A DNA stretch of 64,000 nt, from positions 132,751 to 196,750 of the forward strand of contig JACCXN010000009.1 in NCBI GenBank assembly GCA_013696965.1, read 5' to 3'. This stretch comes from Bacteroidota bacterium (GTDB lineage Bacteria > Bacteroidota > Bacteroidia > JACCXN01). A program made the translations under genes and the position numbers. Under the pieces are notes generated by a model. It was given only the letters and a program-made list of their open reading frames with translations. It searched no databases and was not told the DNA's origin. Numbering within the stretch: position 1 is the first letter of the stretch; each line of letters begins with the position of its first letter. Of the stretch, positions 6,700 to 18,525 are shown in pieces.

Positions 6700-9600
6700 T
6701 TAACGCATTAGGTACATTTTTCCAAAACCCTTTTGAAAAAACTTGTCAGCCTCCGTGGAATTATGTTCAATGGCTGATCCGTCTATCCTTGTAATAACTC
6801 TGTAAAGGTAAACTCCGTTTGCAAGTAAATCTCCGAACTCATCTCTTCCATTCCAGGCAAATTCAGTAATGTTCCTGCCAATATGAATAGGACCTAATTC
6901 ATCCTTATGTATTTCCCTTACAATTTTTCCGGAAACCGTCATAATTTGAATTTTAAAATGAGATGGAATTGTGGAGCCAGTAAGTGTGAAAACGAAACGT
7001 GTAGAGGTAGAAAACGGATTTGGAAAATTCAAAACCTCGGTAATGGTGGATTTATTTATGACTTCAAAACTAATAACATAGTCAAAATCCCCGGATTTAT
7101 TATCTGACCTATCGCTTGCCTTTATCCTTAACTCGTATTTACCATCTTTAGTAAATTGAGGCTGAAGTTCTATTTTGCAACTATTTTTAGGGAGAATAGC
7201 TGGTACAAATCTCATTGGTTCTTGTCCTGGTGCTTCAAAATACAATCTTTTTTGTTCCGATTCAGGATCTGTAAGATAAATGGCAAAGCTTGAGGTATCA
7301 TTAAGTGCAAGGAATCTGTTTTCATCCTTTAACTGAACAACAATAAAGGGTTTGGCAGAAACAATATCACCATTAAGAATATGCACTCCATCGAAAGTAA
7401 CATCAAGCATAGGATTGATTTTATCCCTGCCAACAAAAAAGCCTAATTGAGCCTTGTTGTTGAAATGGTATTGCTCTAATTGCCAATTTTCATCTTTAGG
7501 ATTTATTTCTACCCAAAGGTTGTTGTAACCGGGAAATCCAATAGTTGAAAGCTCTATTGAGGTTATCAATATGCTGTCTGCAGGAAGATGAGCTAATTTT
7601 TTATATTCTAAAGGAAGAATATTGCGTGATATATCTTCCACCCAGTAATTCACATTAATGCTGTCCATATCAACATTACTTATATTTTGAATTGCTATTC
7701 TGAATTTAATCTTATCTCCCTCCTCAATTGTATCGGCATGAAAATAAAAATTTCTGGAAGCATTTAAGGCCGCTTCTGGAATTTCGTCAAAAAGCAATTG
7801 CCATCGCTTAAACTGGGCAGGTGTACTGGTTACCTCATCCCTTAAATTCGCTTTTAACCTTAAATAGGGATAAGAAGCCGCATCAATATTTAAATTGTAA
7901 ATGTCTGTGTTCGTATTGTCAACATTCATCAACAGAGTTTCATTCCCATAAATATCAATCCCGGAAATATCAACACTAACATCATCGTTGGATGGCATTT
8001 CAAGACTTTGCTGTCTCCAATGAAATGAATGCCATTCCTTTGCCGGTCCTGCCACTACGGAACTAAGCCCTCCGGAAGGCAAATTGCGTTCAATATCTGT
8101 AGTAAGATTAATCGAACTGAATTTATTGCTTCCAATAACCGTTTTGGCAGAAGCTATAAGGCCTTTTTGAACAAAAAAGATGAAAGGAAGACTATCTGAA
8201 TTGGTTAACAAGGAAGCATCGGCACCTAAATTTTGAAATGCGGAATGAACATTTGCATTCCATTGAGTACACATGGGATTAAAAACTGAATAGGCAAGTA
8301 TGTAATGCCCATTAGGAACCGAATTTTCAATCATATCCACCATTGCATCCATTTGACTGGTTACAGAAGGATAAAAGATAAAATATTTACTGTCTCTACA
8401 ACCCGGACCCGGATTCACATTATATTGAGGTTTTTCGATTGTTGACCAGGATTCAAGGGTAAGTGGATCAATAACCGCAATATGAATAGCAGGTGCCCAA
8501 CCGCAAGAGGCGTAATCTTGGGTTTCAGCATCAATTTTAAACATCACAGAATATGTTTCTTCTATAGTTGAAGCATTGCCCCTGTTTGAACAAATGAGCT
8601 GTTTGAAAAAACTTTGAAACTGGAACTCACGCTGAATTCTGTTATAACCAATAAAATTAAAATCATTGTTTTTAAACTGGAAAAAGTGGGCCTGCCCCCA
8701 GCCTGACTTATCTTTGATATACTGAAAGGAACTTTCTCTCCACCTTAGGTCCAAAGCAGGTTCTATTAATGGACTTGCCCTCCAGAAATAAACCATACTA
8801 TCTGGCATGTTTTTCAATAAATTTGGCGACCAGTGCAACACCCCTCCACTGTGTGTTATTTCAGCTTTCTCTTTAATTGGGCTGTTGAACAAATCTGTAG
8901 TATCAACTTCTAAAATATATTTTTTTGATTGAGCAAAAGCATTTGCTGTATTTGCCTTTAAGGTTATGCCTTGATTGGGAACAATTGAGTAATGATAAGG
9001 ATAAACAGGGAGAATATCAGAGGAGGAAATTTGCAGACTCAAGGTTGTTTTATTGTTTATTTCGCTGATTTCATCAATTAATAAGGTATTGTCTGCAAAA
9101 ACTGAAAAAATATTTTCCCCGGGTCCCTTTTCATTCTCAACAGGAAGTCGAAAAACCAAAGTGTCCTTATAATTTATTCCATATTTTAAGGCTAATTCTT
9201 TCTTTATAGAGCCATCCGGAAATTTTCTTGCTAATTCAATTGAAAAAAAATTATTAAAAGCACGACCTGTATTTGTTAAAATTACATTTACATCAAAAGA
9301 ATCTATTTCTGTTGTAACATTTGATGGTGTAAAAAAAACATTTTGCTTGCTCACCACTACATCCGGTTTTTTGTATGAATTAATTGAAAGGGCAGGGTCT
9401 CCATGCAATGTCATTTGAAGGCATAAAGTTTTATTCATATAATTGTTTGCAACCTGGATTTCTTTTACTGTTTCTTTCATAACAGTTCCAATACTTTCAC
9501 CGTATTTATAATTCCCAATGTTGTGATAAAACCTGGTGCTGTATGAATGAAGTAAATTAGGAAAACCCAAGCCTACATTTGCTACAAACGCAATTACCCC

Positions 9601-11667
9601 TTTGTCGGCAATAAGTACAAAAGATTCACTTGTGCTAATGGATGTTGTTAAATGAATATTTCCGGCAAAACAAGAATTGGCAAGCAAAATGGGGTACTTT
9701 TTATGGTTATTATAGGTAGCCGGATCATCTATGTTAATATCAAATCCATTTGCGGAAGCATGTCCAAAAAAAGTCATTAGGGAAACCCCAGATTCCAATT
9801 TGTTTTTAATTACATTGGCAAGTGTATTGTCAATTGGTGCTGAAGAGTTTTTATCAAAGGTTGTAACAATTCCACCAAAGAGGGTATCTTCAATAATATT
9901 CTCATAGGAGTTCATATATTGGGTAAAAGCTTGGTGTTCACTTGCATTTGCGCCTCCTCTAAAATGCAAAACTGATTTCATCCATTCCTCAGGAATAGAA
10001 TATCCTTCATATTCAAGCATTTTTTTATGGTAAATTTTTACTTCATTGGCATTCTTAGCTGCAAGTCTTCCTGTAGCAATTGCAGGTTCATACATTGCGC
10101 CATTTAAACCTGCTGTTAACAATGCATCTGATGATGCCATGCCGTATGTTGGAACAAGACATTTTTCATAATAGGATGGACTTTTGCGTGAGTCTCTTGG
10201 ATTAATTGATTTTCCAATTAAAAAGAGATGTTTTGGCTTTACGGTCCACTTGTCCAAAGCAAAATCTGCAAAGTTTTTTATTGAAAGTGGGTGTTTGTAT
10301 ATTCCATGGGCGAACTGATGGTATAGTTCATCAACATCAACAACCAATGGAATATGGCCCGTTCCTGACCGGTAATTTGCGTAATCAACTGTTTCCGATT
10401 TCAATTTTTTAGAGGTAACAAGGAGGTAATCGGCATTGGAATTGAGAAAATTTACAAATTGATTTGTGGCAGGATTAACAGATTCCAGATTTGAAATAGT
10501 AGAAATATAATTCTCAGGCAACAAATAACATTTTTTATCTGATTTTCCTGCAGCTCCATTTGGAATTATCACCTTATAAAGTCCGCCACTATAATAGGTT
10601 TTTATTTTTCTGGCATTTGTAATATCATATACATAAACATCTGATAAAGGATTGTAATTCTGAAATTCAAGCAGTGTTTTTCCCTGTGAAAGGTTATCCT
10701 GAACAATCATTTCAAAAACATTAACATTTAAAAAATTCATTGAATGCGGATAAATTAGGGAGGCCCATGCAATTGTGGTTCGGTTTCCCACAAAAGCGGT
10801 ATATACAAATTCAGTTGTTTCGCTATGAAGAGATCCAGGTAGGATCGTCTTGTTAATTATATTTTTCTCATACCCGTGGTATTGAACATCGGCAAGAGAA
10901 GCGTAAGTTCCAAGAGAATTTTTAAAATCAATTTTGGTATGATGATCGGGAAAGGTGTTTGCATCTCTTGAAGCTCCAATAACAATAGTTTTAAATTCAG
11001 CAGCAGGTCCAGATAAATACGCATTGGGGGTGGGAAAAAATTTAACTCCAGTTCCTCCTTCACCGATAACCGAATTAAACCAGCCCTCTGACTTGGTGTA
11101 ATCTGGATCACTGTCTCCAGCAGAGACCGTTTCTCCTAAAAAATATTCAGTCGTGTAGCTTTGAATGTTTTGCTTTAACACATAAGGAAATGGTGTAAAA
11201 TCACTAAAATTAGCAGCATCCTCATACTGAATTCTTTCATTGTTAATGGATTCACTCCAGGTAATGTAATAAATTGCTGTATCGTTAATCAGGCTATAAT
11301 AGGGATTGGGTTGGTCGCTTTGGGTACTGTACATAAATTTATCCATGTACCCATCGTTTTTTTGAGCATAAAATTCTATATAATCATTGCCGTCAAGAAC
11401 GTATTGGTCTCCTTCATCTTTAATAAATAATGGAACTTGTTCTCCTCTAGCAAAAAGCTGGATTTTTCGATGATCTATTCCTTGCAAAGCTACTCCTGCA
11501 TTCGAAAGGGAGTTAGAGAGCGTTGAAGCGCTAATCCGGTAAATGTTGTTTTGAGTTATTTTGAAAAAAAAATACTTCTGATTATAGTTAATCCATTCGT
11601 TGCCGTATGGTTGTGCGAGGGCAGACGTATATGCAAACAAACAAAATATCAATAGATTTTTTTTCAC
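6700..11667 (-). CDS. porU: Type IX secretion system sortase, PorU2-like (C25 peptidase family)
   Basis: A very long PorU-type protein of 1655 residues; the Porphyromonas enzyme is about 1150. PorU removes the C-terminal sorting domain of T9SS cargo at the cell surface and links the cargo to a lipid anchor. A signal peptide ends near LFAYTSALAQ. The C25 catalytic domain has the His motif FFGHASANG (His636) and the Cys motif LLANSCFAG (Cys666), both intact. Downstream lie several Ig-like/beta-sandwich segments, and the end (NFPNPFSTSTRF to ANGVYLYRV) is itself a type A sorting/FlgD-like domain. The start is GTG at 11667, overlapping the stop of the PorV-like gene as GTGA, which implies translational coupling. 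The length and gene pairing fit the PorU2 branch rather than classical PorU. Confidence 0.88.
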   Translation of the reverse strand: MKKNLLIFCLFAYTSALAQPYGNEWINYNQKYFFFKITQNNIYRISASTLSNSLSNAGVALQGIDHRKIQLFARGEQVPLFIKDEGDQYVLDGNDYIEFYAQKNDGYMDKFMYSTQSDQPNPYYSLINDTAIYYITWSESINNERIQYEDAANFSDFTPFPYVLKQNIQSYTTEYFLGETVSAGDSDPDYTKSEGWFNSVIGEGGTGVKFFPTPNAYLSGPAAEFKTIVIGASRDANTFPDHHTKIDFKNSLGTYASLADVQYHGYEKNIINKTILPGSLHSETTEFVYTAFVGNRTTIAWASLIYPHSMNFLNVNVFEMIVQDNLSQGKTLLEFQNYNPLSDVYVYDITNARKIKTYYSGGLYKVIIPNGAAGKSDKKCYLLPENYISTISNLESVNPATNQFVNFLNSNADYLLVTSKKLKSETVDYANYRSGTGHIPLVVDVDELYHQFAHGIYKHPLSIKNFADFALDKWTVKPKHLFLIGKSINPRDSRKSPSYYEKCLVPTYGMASSDALLTAGLNGAMYEPAIATGRLAAKNANEVKIYHKKMLEYEGYSIPEEWMKSVLHFRGGANASEHQAFTQYMNSYENIIEDTLFGGIVTTFDKNSSAPIDNTLANVIKNKLESGVSLMTFFGHASANGFDINIDDPATYNNHKKYPILLANSCFAGNIHLTTSISTSESFVLIADKGVIAFVANVGLGFPNLLHSYSTRFYHNIGNYKYGESIGTVMKETVKEIQVANNYMNKTLCLQMTLHGDPALSINSYKKPDVVVSKQNVFFTPSNVTTEIDSFDVNVILTNTGRAFNNFFSIELARKFPDGSIKKELALKYGINYKDTLVFRLPVENEKGPGENIFSVFADNTLLIDEISEINNKTTLSLQISSSDILPVYPYHYSIVPNQGITLKANTANAFAQSKKYILEVDTTDLFNSPIKEKAEITHSGGVLHWSPNLLKNMPDSMVYFWRASPLIEPALDLRWRESSFQYIKDKSGWGQAHFFQFKNNDFNFIGYNRIQREFQFQSFFKQLICSNRGNASTIEETYSVMFKIDAETQDYASCGWAPAIHIAVIDPLTLESWSTIEKPQYNVNPGPGCRDSKYFIFYPSVTSQMDAMVDMIENSVPNGHYILAYSVFNPMCTQWNANVHSAFQNLGADASLLTNSDSLPFIFFVQKGLIASAKTVIGSNKFSSINLTTDIERNLPSGGLSSVVAGPAKEWHSFHWRQQSLEMPSNDDVSVDISGIDIYGNETLLMNVDNTNTDIYNLNIDAASYPYLRLKANLRDEVTSTPAQFKRWQLLFDEIPEAALNASRNFYFHADTIEEGDKIKFRIAIQNISNVDMDSINVNYWVEDISRNILPLEYKKLAHLPADSILITSIELSTIGFPGYNNLWVEINPKDENWQLEQYHFNNKAQLGFFVGRDKINPMLDVTFDGVHILNGDIVSAKPFIVVQLKDENRFLALNDTSSFAIYLTDPESEQKRLYFEAPGQEPMRFVPAILPKNSCKIELQPQFTKDGKYELRIKASDRSDNKSGDFDYVISFEVINKSTITEVLNFPNPFSTSTRFVFTLTGSTIPSHFKIQIMTVSGKIVREIHKDELGPIHIGRNITEFAWNGRDEFGDLLANGVYLYRVITRIDGSAIEHNSTEADKFFQKGFGKMYLMR

Positions 11668-12743
11668 CTGTTCTCTCGGTTAATGTCAAATTTTAAAGAA
11701 AATATATTGGAATAAAGGGCAACAGACTGATCACCTATATCAGTTAGTGCATAATCAATGGTAATTCCTTTTATTTTTACACCTATGCCCATGTTTGGCT
11801 GCATACTAGTTTGTTTGTTTTTATCAAGATCGGTTTGTTGTTGAATATTTCCAATACCAGCCCTTAAAAACACGAATCCTCCATAGCCAATCTCTAATCC
11901 CAAATGGGGATCAATACTAACGGCATTGCTTTTAATAAGAACATTTCTTTTTCTGTCAAATGTAAAATCAAAATTTGCCTCTGTAAGCAAAGTAAATTTT
12001 TCTTTGATTTTATAGGTTCTTGCTGCTCCTACCAGTAGTTTTGGTAAAGTAACTTCTACTGAATTTTGAGGTATTTCATTTCCTGTTCTATTAAATACAT
12101 CAATTGTTTCCTGGTTCAATGTATAGCTCCAGGCATTGAATGTGGAGGTTACATCTCTTGCCATTGCTCCAAACTTCCAATTGCCTACTTGATACTGGGC
12201 ACCGAAGTCTAGTCCAAACCCCCATGCCTTGGCAAAGTCACCCACAATACGATGAATAACCTTTGCATTAGCCCCAAGATGAAGGCCAGGGATTGCTGTT
12301 TTTTTGGCATAAGAGGCAATAAATGCATAATCGGCAGCAGAAAAGGAAGTTATTCTGTCGTAATTAATGTTTCCATTTGCATCAATAAGTTCTGTAGTAT
12401 TTGGAATATTATCTACACCGAAACGAATAAAACTAAAACCTAATGCGCTATTCGTATCAAGGGGTGCAGCGAATGCGGCATAATCATATTTAGCAATGCC
12501 TGCAAAATATTCAGCATGCATAAGGGCAACTTGCCTGTTACTCTTAACTCCCAATAAACCTGCAGGATTCCAATATCCAGCGGTTACATCATCAACTGAG
12601 GATACATAAGAATTGGACATCCCTAGTGCTCTTGCTCCCACACCTATGGATAAAAATTCGTTACTGTATTTTCTTGCTGTTTGGGCATATACAACAGTAA
12701 TGCTTACAAAAAGGATGATTGATAATGCAAGTTTTTTCAACAT
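11664..12743 (-). CDS. PorV/PorQ-family outer-membrane barrel protein
   Basis: A 359-residue outer-membrane protein with a signal peptide (MLKKLALSIILFVSITVVYAQ) and the family N-terminal motif FLSIGVGARALGMSNSYV, followed by AGYWNPAGLLGV and alternating beta-strand patterns to the end. PorV is the FadL-like barrel that receives T9SS cargo from the translocon and hands it to the PorU sortase; PorQ is a paralogue. Immediate coupling to the sortase gene (4-bp overlap) supports a role as a shuttle for this particular PorU. I cannot tell PorV from PorQ by eye. No clear -7 box was seen upstream. Confidence 0.88.
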   Translation of the reverse strand: MLKKLALSIILFVSITVVYAQTARKYSNEFLSIGVGARALGMSNSYVSSVDDVTAGYWNPAGLLGVKSNRQVALMHAEYFAGIAKYDYAAFAAPLDTNSALGFSFIRFGVDNIPNTTELIDANGNINYDRITSFSAADYAFIASYAKKTAIPGLHLGANAKVIHRIVGDFAKAWGFGLDFGAQYQVGNWKFGAMARDVTSTFNAWSYTLNQETIDVFNRTGNEIPQNSVEVTLPKLLVGAARTYKIKEKFTLLTEANFDFTFDRKRNVLIKSNAVSIDPHLGLEIGYGGFVFLRAGIGNIQQQTDLDKNKQTSMQPNMGIGVKIKGITIDYALTDIGDQSVALYSNIFSLKFDINRENR

Positions 12744-13038: not shown

Positions 13039-14136
13039 ATGGCGCTAATAAAAAGAATAATCCTTTTTTGTGCGATATTATTTTCAAGTAGTTCTTCAAT
13101 TGCACAGCCTTTAAATAATTTTTTTCAGGTGCTCTTTAAATCAATTGATGGTTCCCCAGCAAAAGAGTGGGTTGAATTTGAAAAAACGGATAAGAAAACC
13201 TGTCAGGAAAAGGTATTTGCACCTACTCCACTTTTAATTGAATTGGAATTACAAGGGCTTGGTTTTACAAACATCCAGGAATGGGACAAGTGGCGGGACT
13301 TTTTTTGCAAAAACAAAAACAGTACTTCTTTACTTATCGCTTTATCTGAGGCTTACTTCCCACATACTGATAGCGTTTTAAAAGCTGCCGGACTTCCTTA
13401 TGTTTTTAGATATCTTCCCGTAGTTTTATCTGCTATGAATCCAAATACACAATGGAAATCGGGAGCTGGTTTATGGCATTTATATATTCCCTATATGGTT
13501 AATTCAGGTTTAATAATAGCTCCTGATTATGACCAAAGACTTGATCCAAAAAAATCTGCTTTAATAGCTTCTAAACGTTTGAAGTTTTTGCATGACAAAG
13601 AAAAAAACATTAAAAAAACTTTGCTTGCCTATACATTTGGTCCTTTTTCACAAACCAGTAAATCCAATTCATACACTGAGGAAGATTTGCTCGAAGCTTT
13701 TGCGGCAATAGTTTATTTATTTGAAAACAAAACGGAATTAAATTTTCCTGTTGCAAATTTAAAACTACCTAAAACCAAACAATTCTTATTGATAGATTCT
13801 ATTCAATTGAATATGGATAAATCTCCTTTTAACCTTAATTCAATTGCTTTATTAAACCCTGCAAATGTTACCGGATATTACAGAGCCGGGGGAATTATTA
13901 CTGTTTTACAACAAGACGAAGAGGCCTTTGAAAAATGGCTAAACAACCCTGTTGTTGAACAAGAGCAACAAAAAGCAATTGCTGTTGAAAAAAAATTTTA
14001 CAAAGTTAAATCAGGTGATACATTATCTGAAATTGCCACCAAATATAATGTGACAACACAGGATCTAATGCAATGGAACAGCCTTAACTCATCCAGAATT
14101 AATATTGGCCAGGAATTAATTATATATGTAAAGTAG
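13039..14136 (+). CDS. Secreted LysM protein with a degenerate lytic-transglycosylase (SLT/MltD-like) domain
   Basis: A 365-residue protein. I chose ATG 13039 because it gives a clean signal peptide (LIKRIILFCAILFSSSSSIAQ); the frame is open back to 12784, but a likely promoter lies in that stretch. Residues about 110-215 follow the MltD/Slt pattern: LPVVLSAMNP, GAGLWHLYIP, DYDQRLDPKKSA, LLAYTFGP. The family's catalytic Glu (LPxIESAxNP) is Leu130 here, and the usual AAYNSGPG is LAYTFGPF. A C-terminal LysM domain (FYKVKSGDTLSEIATKYNVT to INIGQELIIY, about 319-363) should bind peptidoglycan. It therefore looks like a non-catalytic glycan-binding protein. Seven bp separate it from the next gene, in an apparent operon with SGNH and MBOAT genes. 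Confidence 0.8.
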   Translation: MALIKRIILFCAILFSSSSSIAQPLNNFFQVLFKSIDGSPAKEWVEFEKTDKKTCQEKVFAPTPLLIELELQGLGFTNIQEWDKWRDFFCKNKNSTSLLIALSEAYFPHTDSVLKAAGLPYVFRYLPVVLSAMNPNTQWKSGAGLWHLYIPYMVNSGLIIAPDYDQRLDPKKSALIASKRLKFLHDKEKNIKKTLLAYTFGPFSQTSKSNSYTEEDLLEAFAAIVYLFENKTELNFPVANLKLPKTKQFLLIDSIQLNMDKSPFNLNSIALLNPANVTGYYRAGGIITVLQQDEEAFEKWLNNPVVEQEQQKAIAVEKKFYKVKSGDTLSEIATKYNVTTQDLMQWNSLNSSRINIGQELIIYVK

Positions 14137-14143
14137 GTAAATA

Positions 14144-15622
14144 ATGAAGCCGACAAAAATAGTCTATTTTATTTGTTTTGTTTTCCTCTTGCTTTTTCTT
14201 GTAATGGCTATTATGCCATCGGGGGGATATACTATTTACGGTGATTTTAAACTTAAATTTCCTACACTTGCTGGTTTTTTTATTCCAGAGCATACTGAGA
14301 AAAAAGATATTTCCTTTATTATTGAGGACATTCCTACTGAATCTCTTTATTTGAATGTAAGCCTTGATAGTCATTCCGATTCTCTCCAAATGGCAGTGAA
14401 TGATTCTCTTCGTCAAACTTTATCAAAAATTCAATATCCGGGAGGCGACAGAAGTATTTTATACAGTTTTTTTGAAAAATTAAATTTGGCGTCAACTTCA
14501 AAAAGCCGCGTAAGAATTATGCATTACGGAGATTCTCAATTAGAGGGTGACAGAATAACAGGAATAATCCGACAAAAACTACAAGGTGATTTTAGTGGAG
14601 ATGGACCAGGAATGTTTCCTATTATCCCTGTTTCAACTAAAGACTGGTCGAACAACAAATATTCTGACAACTGGAAACGATACACAGGATTTGGAAACAT
14701 TGATACCAGTGTAAACCATAAAAACTATGGTGCTTTGCTTACCTTTTCAAGGTTCACTGATTTTAATGCTGATTCACTACGTGCAGATACCGCCTTTCAT
14801 TATGCCTGGTTTGAAATAACTCCTTCATCAAGACCTGGTTCAAAGAGTTCGATATTTAGAGAAATAACTATGTTTTATGATAATTGCACAATGCCGGTAT
14901 TTATCCAGGTTTTTAAAGACAATGAACTTGTAAGGGAAGATTTATTGCCGGTTTCAAATGTGCTCTCCCAATACAAAATTGTTTTTGATTCACCTGCATC
15001 TACAATCAAATTTACATTTAAAACAAAAATAAGCCCAGACATCCTGGGATTTTCAATTTCATCTCCCACTGGAATAATTGCCGACAATATTCCTATAAGA
15101 GGTGGTTCAGGAACAGAATTTTCAAAAATAAACAGGGAACATTTATCCAGAATGCTAAACATGCTGCAACCAGATTTGTTCATCATGCAATTTGGAGGGA
15201 ATGTTTTGCCCTATATTGATTCAGAAAAAGAATGTAAGGATTATGGTGAGTGGTTGGAGGCGCATTTAAGATTGATAAAAAAAATGATTCCAAAAGCAGA
15301 TGTAATTTTAATCGGCCCGGCTGATATGTCAATAAAAGAAGGGGATGAATATATTACACATCCTTTTCTGGAACAAGTTCGGGATGCATTAAAAAATGCA
15401 GCATTTAATACTGGATCGGCCTATTGGGATATGTATGAGGCAATGGGTGGAAAAAACTCAATGCCTTTATGGGTGGATGCAGAACCTGCTCTTGCTGCAA
15501 AGGATTACATTCATTTTTCAACAAAGGGAGCCTCAAAAATTGCCGGAATGTTTTATGAAACCTTTTCAAATGATTATAAAAAATGGAAACAAAAACACAA
15601 GAATGAAAAAACAATCCCTTAG
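14144..15622 (+). CDS. SGNH/GDSL-family hydrolase (probable envelope O-acetyltransferase or esterase), first copy
   Basis: A 492-residue protein with one N-terminal membrane segment (IVYFICFVFLLLFLVMAIMP) and an extracytoplasmic SGNH domain. Block I is MHYGDSQLEGD with the nucleophile Ser131, block III is QFGGN with Asn353, and block V is DYIHFS with Asp454 and His457, so the catalytic set is complete. A central beta-rich insertion separates blocks I and III. SGNH proteins next to MBOAT proteins usually complete O-acetylation systems (AlgJ/AlgX with AlgI, PatB with PatA, DltD with DltB), receiving the acyl group and passing it to a polysaccharide. It overlaps the next gene by 20 bp. Confidence 0.82.
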   Translation: MKPTKIVYFICFVFLLLFLVMAIMPSGGYTIYGDFKLKFPTLAGFFIPEHTEKKDISFIIEDIPTESLYLNVSLDSHSDSLQMAVNDSLRQTLSKIQYPGGDRSILYSFFEKLNLASTSKSRVRIMHYGDSQLEGDRITGIIRQKLQGDFSGDGPGMFPIIPVSTKDWSNNKYSDNWKRYTGFGNIDTSVNHKNYGALLTFSRFTDFNADSLRADTAFHYAWFEITPSSRPGSKSSIFREITMFYDNCTMPVFIQVFKDNELVREDLLPVSNVLSQYKIVFDSPASTIKFTFKTKISPDILGFSISSPTGIIADNIPIRGGSGTEFSKINREHLSRMLNMLQPDLFIMQFGGNVLPYIDSEKECKDYGEWLEAHLRLIKKMIPKADVILIGPADMSIKEGDEYITHPFLEQVRDALKNAAFNTGSAYWDMYEAMGGKNSMPLWVDAEPALAAKDYIHFSTKGASKIAGMFYETFSNDYKKWKQKHKNEKTIP

Positions 15623-16844
15623 TATATTTATATTCTTTTTATCTGTTCTTTTTAAAAACCTGCTCTTTGCCCAGGCATCTCCTTTTACAATGGAGAACTA
15701 TCCATTTGTAAACAAGCAATACAACAAAATAAATATTTATGGCTCAGACAAAAAGTACAAAAACTTATATTCGAAAATGGAAAAAATGCTGCTTACAGGG
15801 CAGGGAAATATAAAAATTGTTCATTTTGGTGGCTCGCATATACAAGCAGACATGTGGTCAGGTCAGACAAGAAACCTTCTTCAGGAACTAATGCCGGGAT
15901 CATCGGGTGAAAGAGGCTTTTTGTTTCCTTTTACAATGGCCAAAACAAACAGTCCATATCACTATCAAATTGATTATACAGGAAGTTGGACAGCATGCAG
16001 AAATGCAGAAAAAAGCAAAGATTGTTTGTTGGGTTTATCAGGTATATCAGTAACAACTTATGATTCAATTTCTACAGTAAAAATATATTTTAGGGAAGGC
16101 CAGCCGGCCTCTTATTATCATCAAAGAATAAAAATATTTCATCATTTAACCGATTCCTCTTTTGCAATTTTTCCTTTAAATTCAGGCAAATTCAAGGAAA
16201 TTAATGATCCTAAAAATGGATTTACGGAGTTTGTTTTTGATCAAAAAAAAGACACTTTAGAATTTGAAATAAGAAAAACAGCTCAACAACAAAACTATTT
16301 TACTCTTTTCGGAATTAGTTTAGAAAATGATGAGCCAGGGTTTACTTATACCTCCATTGGGGTAAACGGTGCAAGTGTACCCTCTTATAACCGTTGCAGC
16401 TTATTAGCAACTCATTTAAAAGTACTCAAACCTGATTTGATTTTGTTTTCAATAGGAATAAATGATGTGCATGAGGGAGACTTTACAGAAGAAAAATACA
16501 TGCAAAATTACGACACCCTTATTTTAAATATCCGGGCATTAATGCCTGATGTAGCAATTTTATTCACTACCAATACAGATAGTTATTACAAGAAGAAGTT
16601 TCCAAATAAAAAATCAGTAGAAGCAAGCCAGGCAATGGTGAAATTAGCTGAAAAACACGGAGCAGGAGTCTGGGATTTACTGAATGTAATGGGTGGTGTT
16701 GGTTCAATAAAAGAATGGGAAAAACAAGGAATGGCAAAAAGGGATCTTATCCATCTTACTCCAAACGGTTACAAAATAATTGGAAATTTAATGTATAATG
16801 CACTATTAAAATCATATATACAATACAGTATTGGAAACCCTTGA
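15603..16844 (+). CDS. SGNH-family hydrolase, second copy
   Basis: A 413-residue secreted paralogue of the preceding protein, with a signal peptide (MKKQSLSIFIFFLSVLFKNLLFAQ). The start is ATG 15603, chosen for this signal peptide; the frame is open back to 15396 but that stretch lies wholly inside the previous gene. Block I reads HFGGSHIQAD, with Gly where GDS(L) families have Asp, and Ser78 as the likely nucleophile. Block III is IGINDVHEG (Asn287) and block V is DLIHLTPNGY (Asp381, His384). The 20-bp overlap upstream and 14-bp overlap downstream indicate one transcript with coupled translation. Two SGNH proteins with one MBOAT resemble alginate-type systems in which one binds and one transfers. 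Confidence 0.82.
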   Translation: MKKQSLSIFIFFLSVLFKNLLFAQASPFTMENYPFVNKQYNKINIYGSDKKYKNLYSKMEKMLLTGQGNIKIVHFGGSHIQADMWSGQTRNLLQELMPGSSGERGFLFPFTMAKTNSPYHYQIDYTGSWTACRNAEKSKDCLLGLSGISVTTYDSISTVKIYFREGQPASYYHQRIKIFHHLTDSSFAIFPLNSGKFKEINDPKNGFTEFVFDQKKDTLEFEIRKTAQQQNYFTLFGISLENDEPGFTYTSIGVNGASVPSYNRCSLLATHLKVLKPDLILFSIGINDVHEGDFTEEKYMQNYDTLILNIRALMPDVAILFTTNTDSYYKKKFPNKKSVEASQAMVKLAEKHGAGVWDLLNVMGGVGSIKEWEKQGMAKRDLIHLTPNGYKIIGNLMYNALLKSYIQYSIGNP

Positions 16845-18525
16845 ACAGTTTTTAATTCTTTTTTTCAGTAAGGAAAACTTTGCTCGGATTTTTCTTTTTT
16901 CGGAAGAAACGCCCTTGCTTTTCACGCGCTTTTTTTTCTGGGCGTTTTTCGCTCTTGTAATGGTTTTTTTATCCCTATTTCACAAGAGAATATGGCTGAG
17001 AAATGCTTTCCTGTTTTTTGTGAGTCTCTTTTTTTATTATAAAACCAGCGGTCTTTTCATTTCCATCCTTCTTTTTTCCACACTATGCGATTACACACTC
17101 GGATTAAGCATCTATAAAATGCAAAAAAAATCCTGGAAAATGTTGCTCACAGCTTTAAGTATTGTCATTAATTTATTTGTGCTTGCTTATTTTAAATATG
17201 CATACTTTTTTACAGATTCTTACAACGCATTATTTTCCACCAAAATTGAAATTTTCAACCATTTTGCTCATTGGTCCAATATTGCCTCAGGAAGTCAATA
17301 TCAGGTAAATTCTATTTTATTACCCGTTGGTATTTCTTTTTTTACATTTCAAACCATTAGTTATTCCATTGATGTTTACAGAGAAAGAATTAATCCTGTG
17401 CGGAACATAATGGATTTTGGTTTTTATGTGAGCTTCTTTCCCCAATTGGTGGCAGGGCCCATTGTTCGTGCAAATGAATTCATACCTCAATTATATAAAC
17501 CTTATGATCTGGATAAAAAAGCATTCGGATTGGCCGTTTTTATGATTTTAAATGGAATGGTCAAGAAATTAGTTCTTGGAGATTATATAGCAGTAAATTT
17601 TATTGATCGTGTGTTTGATAATCCTTTGTTTTTTACTGGTTTTGAAAATTTACTCGCATTATTTGGGTATAGTTTACAAGTATATGCAGATTTTTCAGGA
17701 TATACGGATATGGCAATAGGTATTGCTCTACTTATGGGCTTTCGATTGCCCAAGAACTTCAATTCTCCTTATAAGGCAAAAAACCTGGGTGAATTTTGGC
17801 AACGCTGGCATATATCCTTGTCAACCTGGCTAAAAGATTATTTATATATTCCTTTAGGAGGAAATCGCAAAGCCTCTGCATTTACCTGGATTTGTTGCAT
17901 TTCTATTTTATCTATAGTTTTATTATTATCTGATGATATCTGGTTGAGAATATCCATTGCCAGCTTTGCTGGTGTTTTCGGATTAATGATGTTGTTGGTT
18001 TTGTCTTTCAGAAAATGGATGGTAACCAACATAAATTTAATGCTGACTATGCTCTTGGGTGGATTATGGCATGGAGCCAGTTTTCAATTCATTATTTGGG
18101 GGGCCTTAAATGGAATTGGCCTTGTTGTTTATAAAAACTGGAAAAAAATAAGCCCTTGGGAAAACAGTACAAGGTGGTTTGCAAACGCTTGGAAAATAGG
18201 TCTTACTTTTATTTTCATCACTTTTACAAGGATTTGGTTTAGGAGTGAAACAATGAATACTTCATTTGACATATTAAACCAGATTTGGAATAATTTCAGA
18301 CCAGACCTTATTCTTGAAATATTAGGCTCTTACAAAACTGTTTTTGTAATTATGCTCTCTGGATTTGTTATTCATTGGTTACCTGGTAATTTTAAAGAGG
18401 GTTATAAAAACTTTTTTTCCAGTATTCCATGGTATGCGCAGGCGGGCATTTCAACTTTAATAATTTTCCTTGTTTATCAATCCCTTTCAGCAAAGCTGCA
18501 GCCCTTTATTTATTTCCAGTTTTAA
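16831..18525 (+). CDS. MBOAT-family membrane-bound O-acyltransferase (AlgI/PatA-like)
   Basis: A 564-residue polytopic protein with more than ten hydrophobic segments. MBOAT motifs are clear: SFFPQLVAGPIVRANEFIPQ, YSLQVYADFSGYTDMAIGIA, FWQRWHISLSTWLKDYLYIP (His327) and GGLWHGASFQFIIWG, in which His414 is the invariant catalytic histidine. Such proteins move an acyl group, usually acetyl, across the inner membrane for polysaccharide or peptidoglycan O-acetylation by a periplasmic SGNH partner. The only start that preserves the N-terminus is TTG 16831, overlapping the previous stop by 14 bp; the next ATG is more than 40 codons in. The polymer acetylated is not shown by the sequence. Confidence 0.88.
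   Translation: METLEQFLILFFSKENFARIFLFSEETPLLFTRFFFWAFFALVMVFLSLFHKRIWLRNAFLFFVSLFFYYKTSGLFISILLFSTLCDYTLGLSIYKMQKKSWKMLLTALSIVINLFVLAYFKYAYFFTDSYNALFSTKIEIFNHFAHWSNIASGSQYQVNSILLPVGISFFTFQTISYSIDVYRERINPVRNIMDFGFYVSFFPQLVAGPIVRANEFIPQLYKPYDLDKKAFGLAVFMILNGMVKKLVLGDYIAVNFIDRVFDNPLFFTGFENLLALFGYSLQVYADFSGYTDMAIGIALLMGFRLPKNFNSPYKAKNLGEFWQRWHISLSTWLKDYLYIPLGGNRKASAFTWICCISILSIVLLLSDDIWLRISIASFAGVFGLMMLLVLSFRKWMVTNINLMLTMLLGGLWHGASFQFIIWGALNGIGLVVYKNWKKISPWENSTRWFANAWKIGLTFIFITFTRIWFRSETMNTSFDILNQIWNNFRPDLILEILGSYKTVFVIMLSGFVIHWLPGNFKEGYKNFFSSIPWYAQAGISTLIIFLVYQSLSAKLQPFIYFQF

Follow-up and report, generated by a model that had tools for sequence, protein, structure and literature searches.

The gene at positions 13039 to 14136 (+) of the window, the 64,000-nucleotide stretch of DNA that we analyzed as a whole, encodes a homologue of MltD-type lytic transglycosylases (LTs) that has lost the catalytic glutamate, and we regard it with high confidence as a pseudoenzyme. 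Hereafter called pLT, it heads an operon whose products very probably acetylate the cell wall, and it is very likely part of a peptidoglycan O-acetylation (OAP) system. On balance, we favor the view that pLT, a secreted and catalytically dead LT, serves this system of the Bacteroidota as a peptidoglycan-binding accessory subunit. Taken as a whole, the operon appears to be a peptidoglycan O-acetylation cluster of known type that has, in addition, a new LT subunit, dead in most cases.

A lytic transglycosylase homologue with leucine at the catalytic position

Translation of the pLT gene yields an intact frame of 365 amino acids. Its N terminus reads as a probable Sec signal peptide (MALIKRIILFCAILFSSSSSIA; 13039 to 13104, +), and since there is no lipobox cysteine, the protein is probably soluble and periplasmic. 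It holds an SLT domain at residues 120 to 211 (13396 to 13671, +; PF01464, 29.4 bits against a Pfam cutoff of 21.3) and, as the original prediction had proposed, an intact LysM domain, the only one, at the C terminus (residues 321 to 362; 13999 to 14124, +; PF01476, 61.5 bits). The proposed transglycosylase fold was recovered from the AlphaFold2 model (mean pLDDT, 84; pTM, 0.74), whose six Foldseek matches with an E value below 0.001 are all MltD of Pseudomonas aeruginosa. The global TM-scores are moderate (0.43 to 0.47 by query), which flexible linkage of the domains probably explains in part.

In a phmmer alignment, the pLT segment LPVVLSAMNP lies opposite LPVIESAYNP of chain 8rhe, which the PDB describes as P. 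aeruginosa MltD. Thus, Leu130 (TTA codon, 13426 to 13428, +) replaces the catalytic glutamate, in agreement with the loss inferred earlier; alignments with operon homologues and with MltDs place it at the same position. The AAYNSGPG motif is also altered as described, reading LAYTFGPF in pLT (residues 196 to 203; 13624 to 13647, +). When 39 relatives with the Glu were compared, residues equivalent to E130, Q147, N199, and G203 were present in 39, 39, 37, and 39 sequences, respectively; the window's pLT carries L, H, T, and F at these positions, with WHL standing in place of the WQ glutamine. Of the features that mark MltD and family GH23, pLT therefore has the SLT fold and the C-terminal LysM domain, and it has neither the catalytic Glu of (I/V)ESAxNP nor the AAYNxGxG motif. 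By both Foldseek and phmmer, its nearest counterpart is MltD (Escherichia coli; P. aeruginosa, 8rhe and 8rhf), which is likewise secreted and combines an LT fold with a following LysM. In contrast to MltD, pLT is devoid of the catalytic Glu and of the active-site Gln, Asn, and Gly and is linked to O-acetylation genes.

Operon partners and their likeness to O-acetylation proteins

Gene layout supports the earlier placement of pLT at the front of an operon that also contains two SGNH genes and one MBOAT gene. SGNH1 (14144 to 15622, +) starts 7 nt after pLT and is followed, with overlapping ends, by SGNH2 (15603 to 16844, +), whose start at 15603 gives a 20-nt overlap with SGNH1, and by the MBOAT gene (16831 to 18525, +). 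A CDP-alcohol phosphatidyltransferase gene lies 3′ of the MBOAT gene after a gap of 146 nt, and the gene list of the window holds no polymer-synthesis genes adjoining the operon. A sigma-70 promoter scan gave the same result for real and shuffled sequences, and a scan for the Bacteroidota-type promoter pattern returned fewer matches than expected by chance. The divergent neighbors (6700 to 12743, −) encode a PorV2 family protein (NCBIfam, 523.9 bits) and a secreted protein of 1,655 amino acids, likely related to type IX secretion.

Both SGNH proteins are Ape1-like. SGNH1, which takes the Ape1b position and has a probable N-terminal membrane anchor, finds its best PDB match in Ape1 (4k3u; profile E value, 7.8e-29); the same entry is the best match of SGNH2 (profile E value, 6.1e-36), which takes the Ape1c position and has a probable signal peptide. 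In both proteins, the two blocks of the split SGNH domain align with 4k3u, whose sequence is identical to that of 4K7J, NmApe. With the AlphaFold2 model of SGNH1 (pLDDT, 84), Foldseek retrieved Ape1 of Campylobacter jejuni and the O-acetylesterase 4k3u at an E value of 1e-22, the next structure following at 3e-8. Conserved residues are S131, N353, D454, and H457 in SGNH1 (Ser and Asn in 71 of 71 sequences each at the operon loci) and S79, N288, D382, and H385 in SGNH2 (numbered from position 15600; each in 63 of 63).

The third partner is an MBOAT acyltransferase of the PatA/DltB type (PF03062, DltB model). It is encoded by the single MBOAT gene that a search found in the window's genome, and taken on its own it has DltB as its nearest PDB entry. 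At the operon loci, H327 is conserved in 61/61, H414 in 60/61, and Y561 in 58/61 sequences. Tyr561 is part of the C-terminal hexapeptide FIYFQF (18505 to 18522, +), with which most of the named homologues also end. This motif is the equivalent of the acyl-shuttle hexapeptide of PatA: the C terminus of NgPatA reads FIYANF, and its Tyr carries the acetyl group (PMC12148441).

The order of two Ape1-like SGNH genes followed by an MBOAT gene was described in 2005. According to Weadge et al., ape1b-ape1c-pat is the order of a cluster whose ape1b and ape1c genes occur in Bacteroides and Porphyromonas, genera of the same phylum, and peptidoglycan O-acetylation amounts to 69% in B. fragilis and 27% in B. 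thetaiotaomicron (PMC1199599). The original prediction, which knew of no described system of this exact composition, is therefore not supported for three of the four genes. The window's operon has the MBOAT His, the C-terminal acyl-tyrosine motif, adjacent Ape1-like SGNH genes, and the ape1b-ape1c-pat order. Given the Ape1 likeness of SGNH1 and SGNH2, the FIYFQF motif, and the gene order, it reads as an OAP cluster, which strengthens the earlier suggestion of a link to O-acetylation. Orthology with the Bacteroides cluster is presumed from gene order and Ape1 likeness, and by analogy with Ape1 and PatA the acyl group would go to peptidoglycan. The operon thus looks like a cluster of the ape1b-ape1c-pat type with an LT-like gene in front. 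In the passages of the 2005 paper used here, no LT gene is mentioned (PMC1199599), whereas the window's cluster is headed by a Glu-less MltD-like LysM protein. In the open-access literature, we found neither an LT-like pseudoenzyme in an O-acetylation operon nor such a four-gene system.

The PatA/PatB/Ape1 systems of Neisseria and Campylobacter share with the window an MBOAT protein with a C-terminal F-x-Y-x-x-F motif, SGNH partners, and the Ape1 fold that we find in SGNH1. They differ in that the window has two Ape1-like SGNH proteins and an LT-like subunit, and in that some of its relatives fuse SGNH2 to the MBOAT. For the acetyltransferase partner (the PatB role) in Bacteroidota, our literature search found no assignment.

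Loss of the glutamate across Bacteroidia

In Bacteroidia, an LT-like gene often lies directly 5′ of two SGNH genes and an MBOAT gene. As a single-protein query with pLT found no relatives among the genome contigs, SGNH1, which is independent of the LT gene, was taken as the anchor for collecting loci; the order- and family-level searches cover just three genomes. A search with pLT in 396 genomes of the class returned mostly ordinary MltDs (MltD-like matches occur in 391 of the 396, most of them without the operon). Because these fill the match list, Glu-less LTs were counted from loci instead. The best 30 loci of this search, which did not depend on SGNH1, include 10 Glu-less relatives, and SGNH1 is present in all 10 of their genomes, with the Glu-less gene immediately before it in 8, compared with a base rate of 143 in 396 genomes.

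Of 70 long loci, 36 have an LT-like gene immediately 5′ of SGNH1, as do 45 of the 80 best named loci. The idea that it always precedes the SGNH-MBOAT genes is thus borne out at these loci but not generally: about half of the related SGNH1-SGNH2-MBOAT operons have no adjoining LT gene, and one such operon (L150) belongs to a genome of the window's own GTDB family (G001). This argues that the LT is an accessory component that modulates the core chemistry and is not needed for it.

Among 75 nonredundant, aligned operon LTs, the catalytic Glu is kept in 21. The remaining sequences have Leu (31), Cys (8), Ile (6), Val (3), Ala (2), or, once each, Met, Thr, Gln, or an alignment gap at this position. 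Leucine, whose conservation the original prediction had asked about, is hence the commonest non-Glu state but one of several; similarly, most homologues share both the loss and the neighborhood, while other lineages have an LT with intact Glu in the same operon. Among the genomes with the dead form are those of the cultured Maribellus luteus, Maribellus sp. CM-23, and Draconibacterium aestuarii, together with many metagenome-assembled genomes (MAGs) of Flavobacteriales and Cyclobacteriaceae; the Glu form occurs, for example, in several MAGs of Bacteroidales. The recurrence of gene order and Glu loss in dozens of Bacteroidia genomes speaks against chance. At these loci, where the LT is mostly Glu-less, the catalytic residues of the SGNH and MBOAT proteins are invariant or nearly so. 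To varying extents, the dead clade has lost Q147, N199, and G203, whereas the framework residues G144, W146, D165, and R167 are found in 54 of 54 sequences and S131 is invariant (52 rows). A single mutant or a sequencing error at Leu130 was considered and rejected, since most operon homologues are changed at the same position.

Two LT-like LysM proteins that have Ser or Ala instead of the Glu do not adjoin SGNH1 (L045, 6488 to 7708, −; L046, 7525 to 8769, +); their genomes have the SGNH1-SGNH2-MBOAT operon without an LT gene (L158, L159). In a Marinilabiliales MAG, the operon LT is split into two open frames (L224, 5502 to 7001), which may reflect decay of this copy or a misassembly.

In the phylogeny, the LTs form a clear evolutionary progression that starts with Glu-containing and ends with dead proteins. 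In a tree computed without the catalytic column, one branch divides Glu from non-Glu rows. When the tree was rooted on ordinary MltDs and fast rows were removed, the operon LTs formed one clade (98/95), within which the Glu-less rows again formed one clade (100/98; 200 of 200 bootstrap trees). In the first tree, the two LTs of family f12 (L165, L170), both with the Glu, grouped with ordinary MltDs, and the second tree omitted them; a second recruitment of an LT in this family is therefore possible. The window's row joins the Glu-less clade with the longest end branch of all rows (2.7 to 3.5), and its place there is not formally secured, as a separate origin of the lineage is not rejected (AU test, P = 0.08). 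Several independent losses of the Glu are disfavored, one change being sufficient on the tree even without the long rows. The simplest history is probably that an MltD was recruited into the operon once and lost its Glu once, after which the site drifted, with the caveat of long-branch effects, the Glu-less branches being far longer than those with Glu. In nine pairs of dead LTs from relatives, dN/dS was 0.06 to 0.34, indicating that the dead LT is kept by selection in those lineages (the window gene itself has no close relative); LT values usually exceed those of the MBOAT.

Possible roles of the dead transglycosylase

Little is known of how MBOAT-SGNH systems select and retain their polymer. 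Our analysis suggests that the dead LT, rather than cutting the wall, holds or recognizes it on behalf of the acetylating enzymes; positioning of the machinery on the wall, as in the original prediction, is likewise a putative role. In the mechanism that we propose, the MBOAT would load acetyl from the cytoplasmic side onto Tyr561 of FIYFQF, from where an SGNH serine would accept it, most probably the serine of SGNH2, given a natural SGNH2-MBOAT fusion described below. The SGNH enzymes would then add acetyl to, or remove it from, O6 of MurNAc. Beside membrane-anchored SGNH1, and perhaps in physical contact with it, the dead LT would grip the glycan strand through its LT cleft and LysM domain and present MurNAc to the SGNH enzymes. 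We consider such presentation of the strand without cutting about an even bet; binding in the pLT cleft is not assured, because Q147, N199, and G203 are degraded there. In evolutionary terms, an active LT would have been recruited into the operon, would probably have lost its Glu once, and would have become a pure binder in most lineages. That a wall cutter was turned in this way, by a single loss, into a dedicated glycan-presenting acetyltransferase subunit in Bacteroidia is a more tentative proposal. If it is true, the kind of enzyme that O-acetylation blocks became part of the machine making the mark, and pLT would be an LT-family pseudoenzyme with a testable partner.

In the leading alternative, pLT might regulate true autolysins, binding or recruiting active LTs or amidases and coupling them to O-acetylation. 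Its model would be DipM, which also has LysM domains and, like other dead LytM regulators, resembles pLT in being secreted and in having a dead wall-hydrolase domain, although the fold is different and DipM regulates autolysins whereas pLT is tied to O-acetylation genes. In Caulobacter, the inactive LytM domain of DipM stimulates the LT SdpA and the amidase AmiC (PMC10336132). O-acetylation blocks LTs, according to the 2005 paper (PMC1199599), and the window's genome encodes three further SLT proteins with Glu that could be regulated: an MltD, an MltF-like protein, and a 335-amino-acid protein. The last of these (L257, 1015 to 2019) has no visible LysM. However, the linkage of pLT is to SGNH1 and the MBOAT, the surrounding loci yielded almost no further LT genes, and the near-universal MltD-like proteins mostly occur without the operon, making this explanation unlikely. 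We consider it improbable, too, that the Glu-less protein is a relaxed, nearly dispensable remnant and the window's copy slowly decaying. The long Glu-less branches, the window's extreme end branch, the many operons without an LT gene, and the dN/dS ratios above those of the MBOAT would fit such decay, but the same ratios are low, frames are intact in dozens of lineages, the framework residues and LysM are kept, and one clade has been retained across genomes of Flavobacteriales, Bacteroidales, and Cyclobacteriaceae.

The remaining explanations concern the substrate and the activity. Alginate is O-acetylated by AlgI, AlgJ, and AlgX, an MBOAT and two SGNH proteins. This composition resembles that of the window, but the target is alginate and there is no LT-like subunit. 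If the operon similarly acylated an exopolysaccharide or capsule, the LT-like protein would bind that glycan, a highly improbable reading even though MBOAT-SGNH pairs act on many polymers (PMC12148441) and the MBOAT alone is nearest DltB: SGNH1 is far closer to the Ape1 structures than to any other (1e-22 versus 3e-8), the top sequence match of SGNH2 is Ape1 as well, LysM and the LT fold point to peptidoglycan, and the adjoining genes include none for polymer synthesis. Finally, we give very little credence to pLT still being lytic without Glu130, whether through an acid at a new place or through a different mechanism. Acids elsewhere near the fold (D165 and position 166) are well conserved, but equally so in the Glu-containing enzymes, and thus look like framework. 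A relocated catalytic acid, which the original prediction had named as evidence against itself, was not found, the alignment holding no acidic position specific to the dead clade, and Q147, N199, and G203 are degraded too; according to their PDB entries, E64Q MltE and E503Q Slt are inactive.

For the preferred reading of pLT as a glycan-holding accessory of O-acetylation, operon variants are informative. In two genomes of family f12, SGNH2 and the MBOAT are naturally fused into a protein of about 940 amino acids ending in FIYFQF (L165, 3413 to 6220, −; L170, 4900 to 7731, +), encoded 3′ of SGNH1 and a short LT gene with the Glu; the fusion points to SGNH2 as the protein with which the MBOAT works directly. 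The LT-SGNH1 pair of genus g110 is intact, with the MBOAT gene lying elsewhere. Together, the fusion and the LT-SGNH1 pairs that survive break-up of the operon suggest two modules, MBOAT-SGNH2 for acyl transfer and LT-SGNH1 as a wall module. Nature thus offers a graded series of one operon, in which the LT has its Glu, is dead, or is missing, besides the SGNH2-MBOAT fusion. As the series includes the cultured species M. luteus and D. aestuarii, its comparison could reveal what the LT fold contributes to O-acetylation and which SGNH protein takes the acetyl from the MBOAT.

Two other arrangements were observed. Several genomes have a HAD-type phosphatase gene, beta-phosphoglucomutase-like by eye, between SGNH2 and the MBOAT gene (L178, 9783 to 10448; L182, 9711 to 10355; L244, 2926 to 3582). 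In f80, another family of the phylum (L065, L069, L074), an SGNH1-like gene directly adjoins the MBOAT gene without SGNH2 or an LT, a simpler form of the system.
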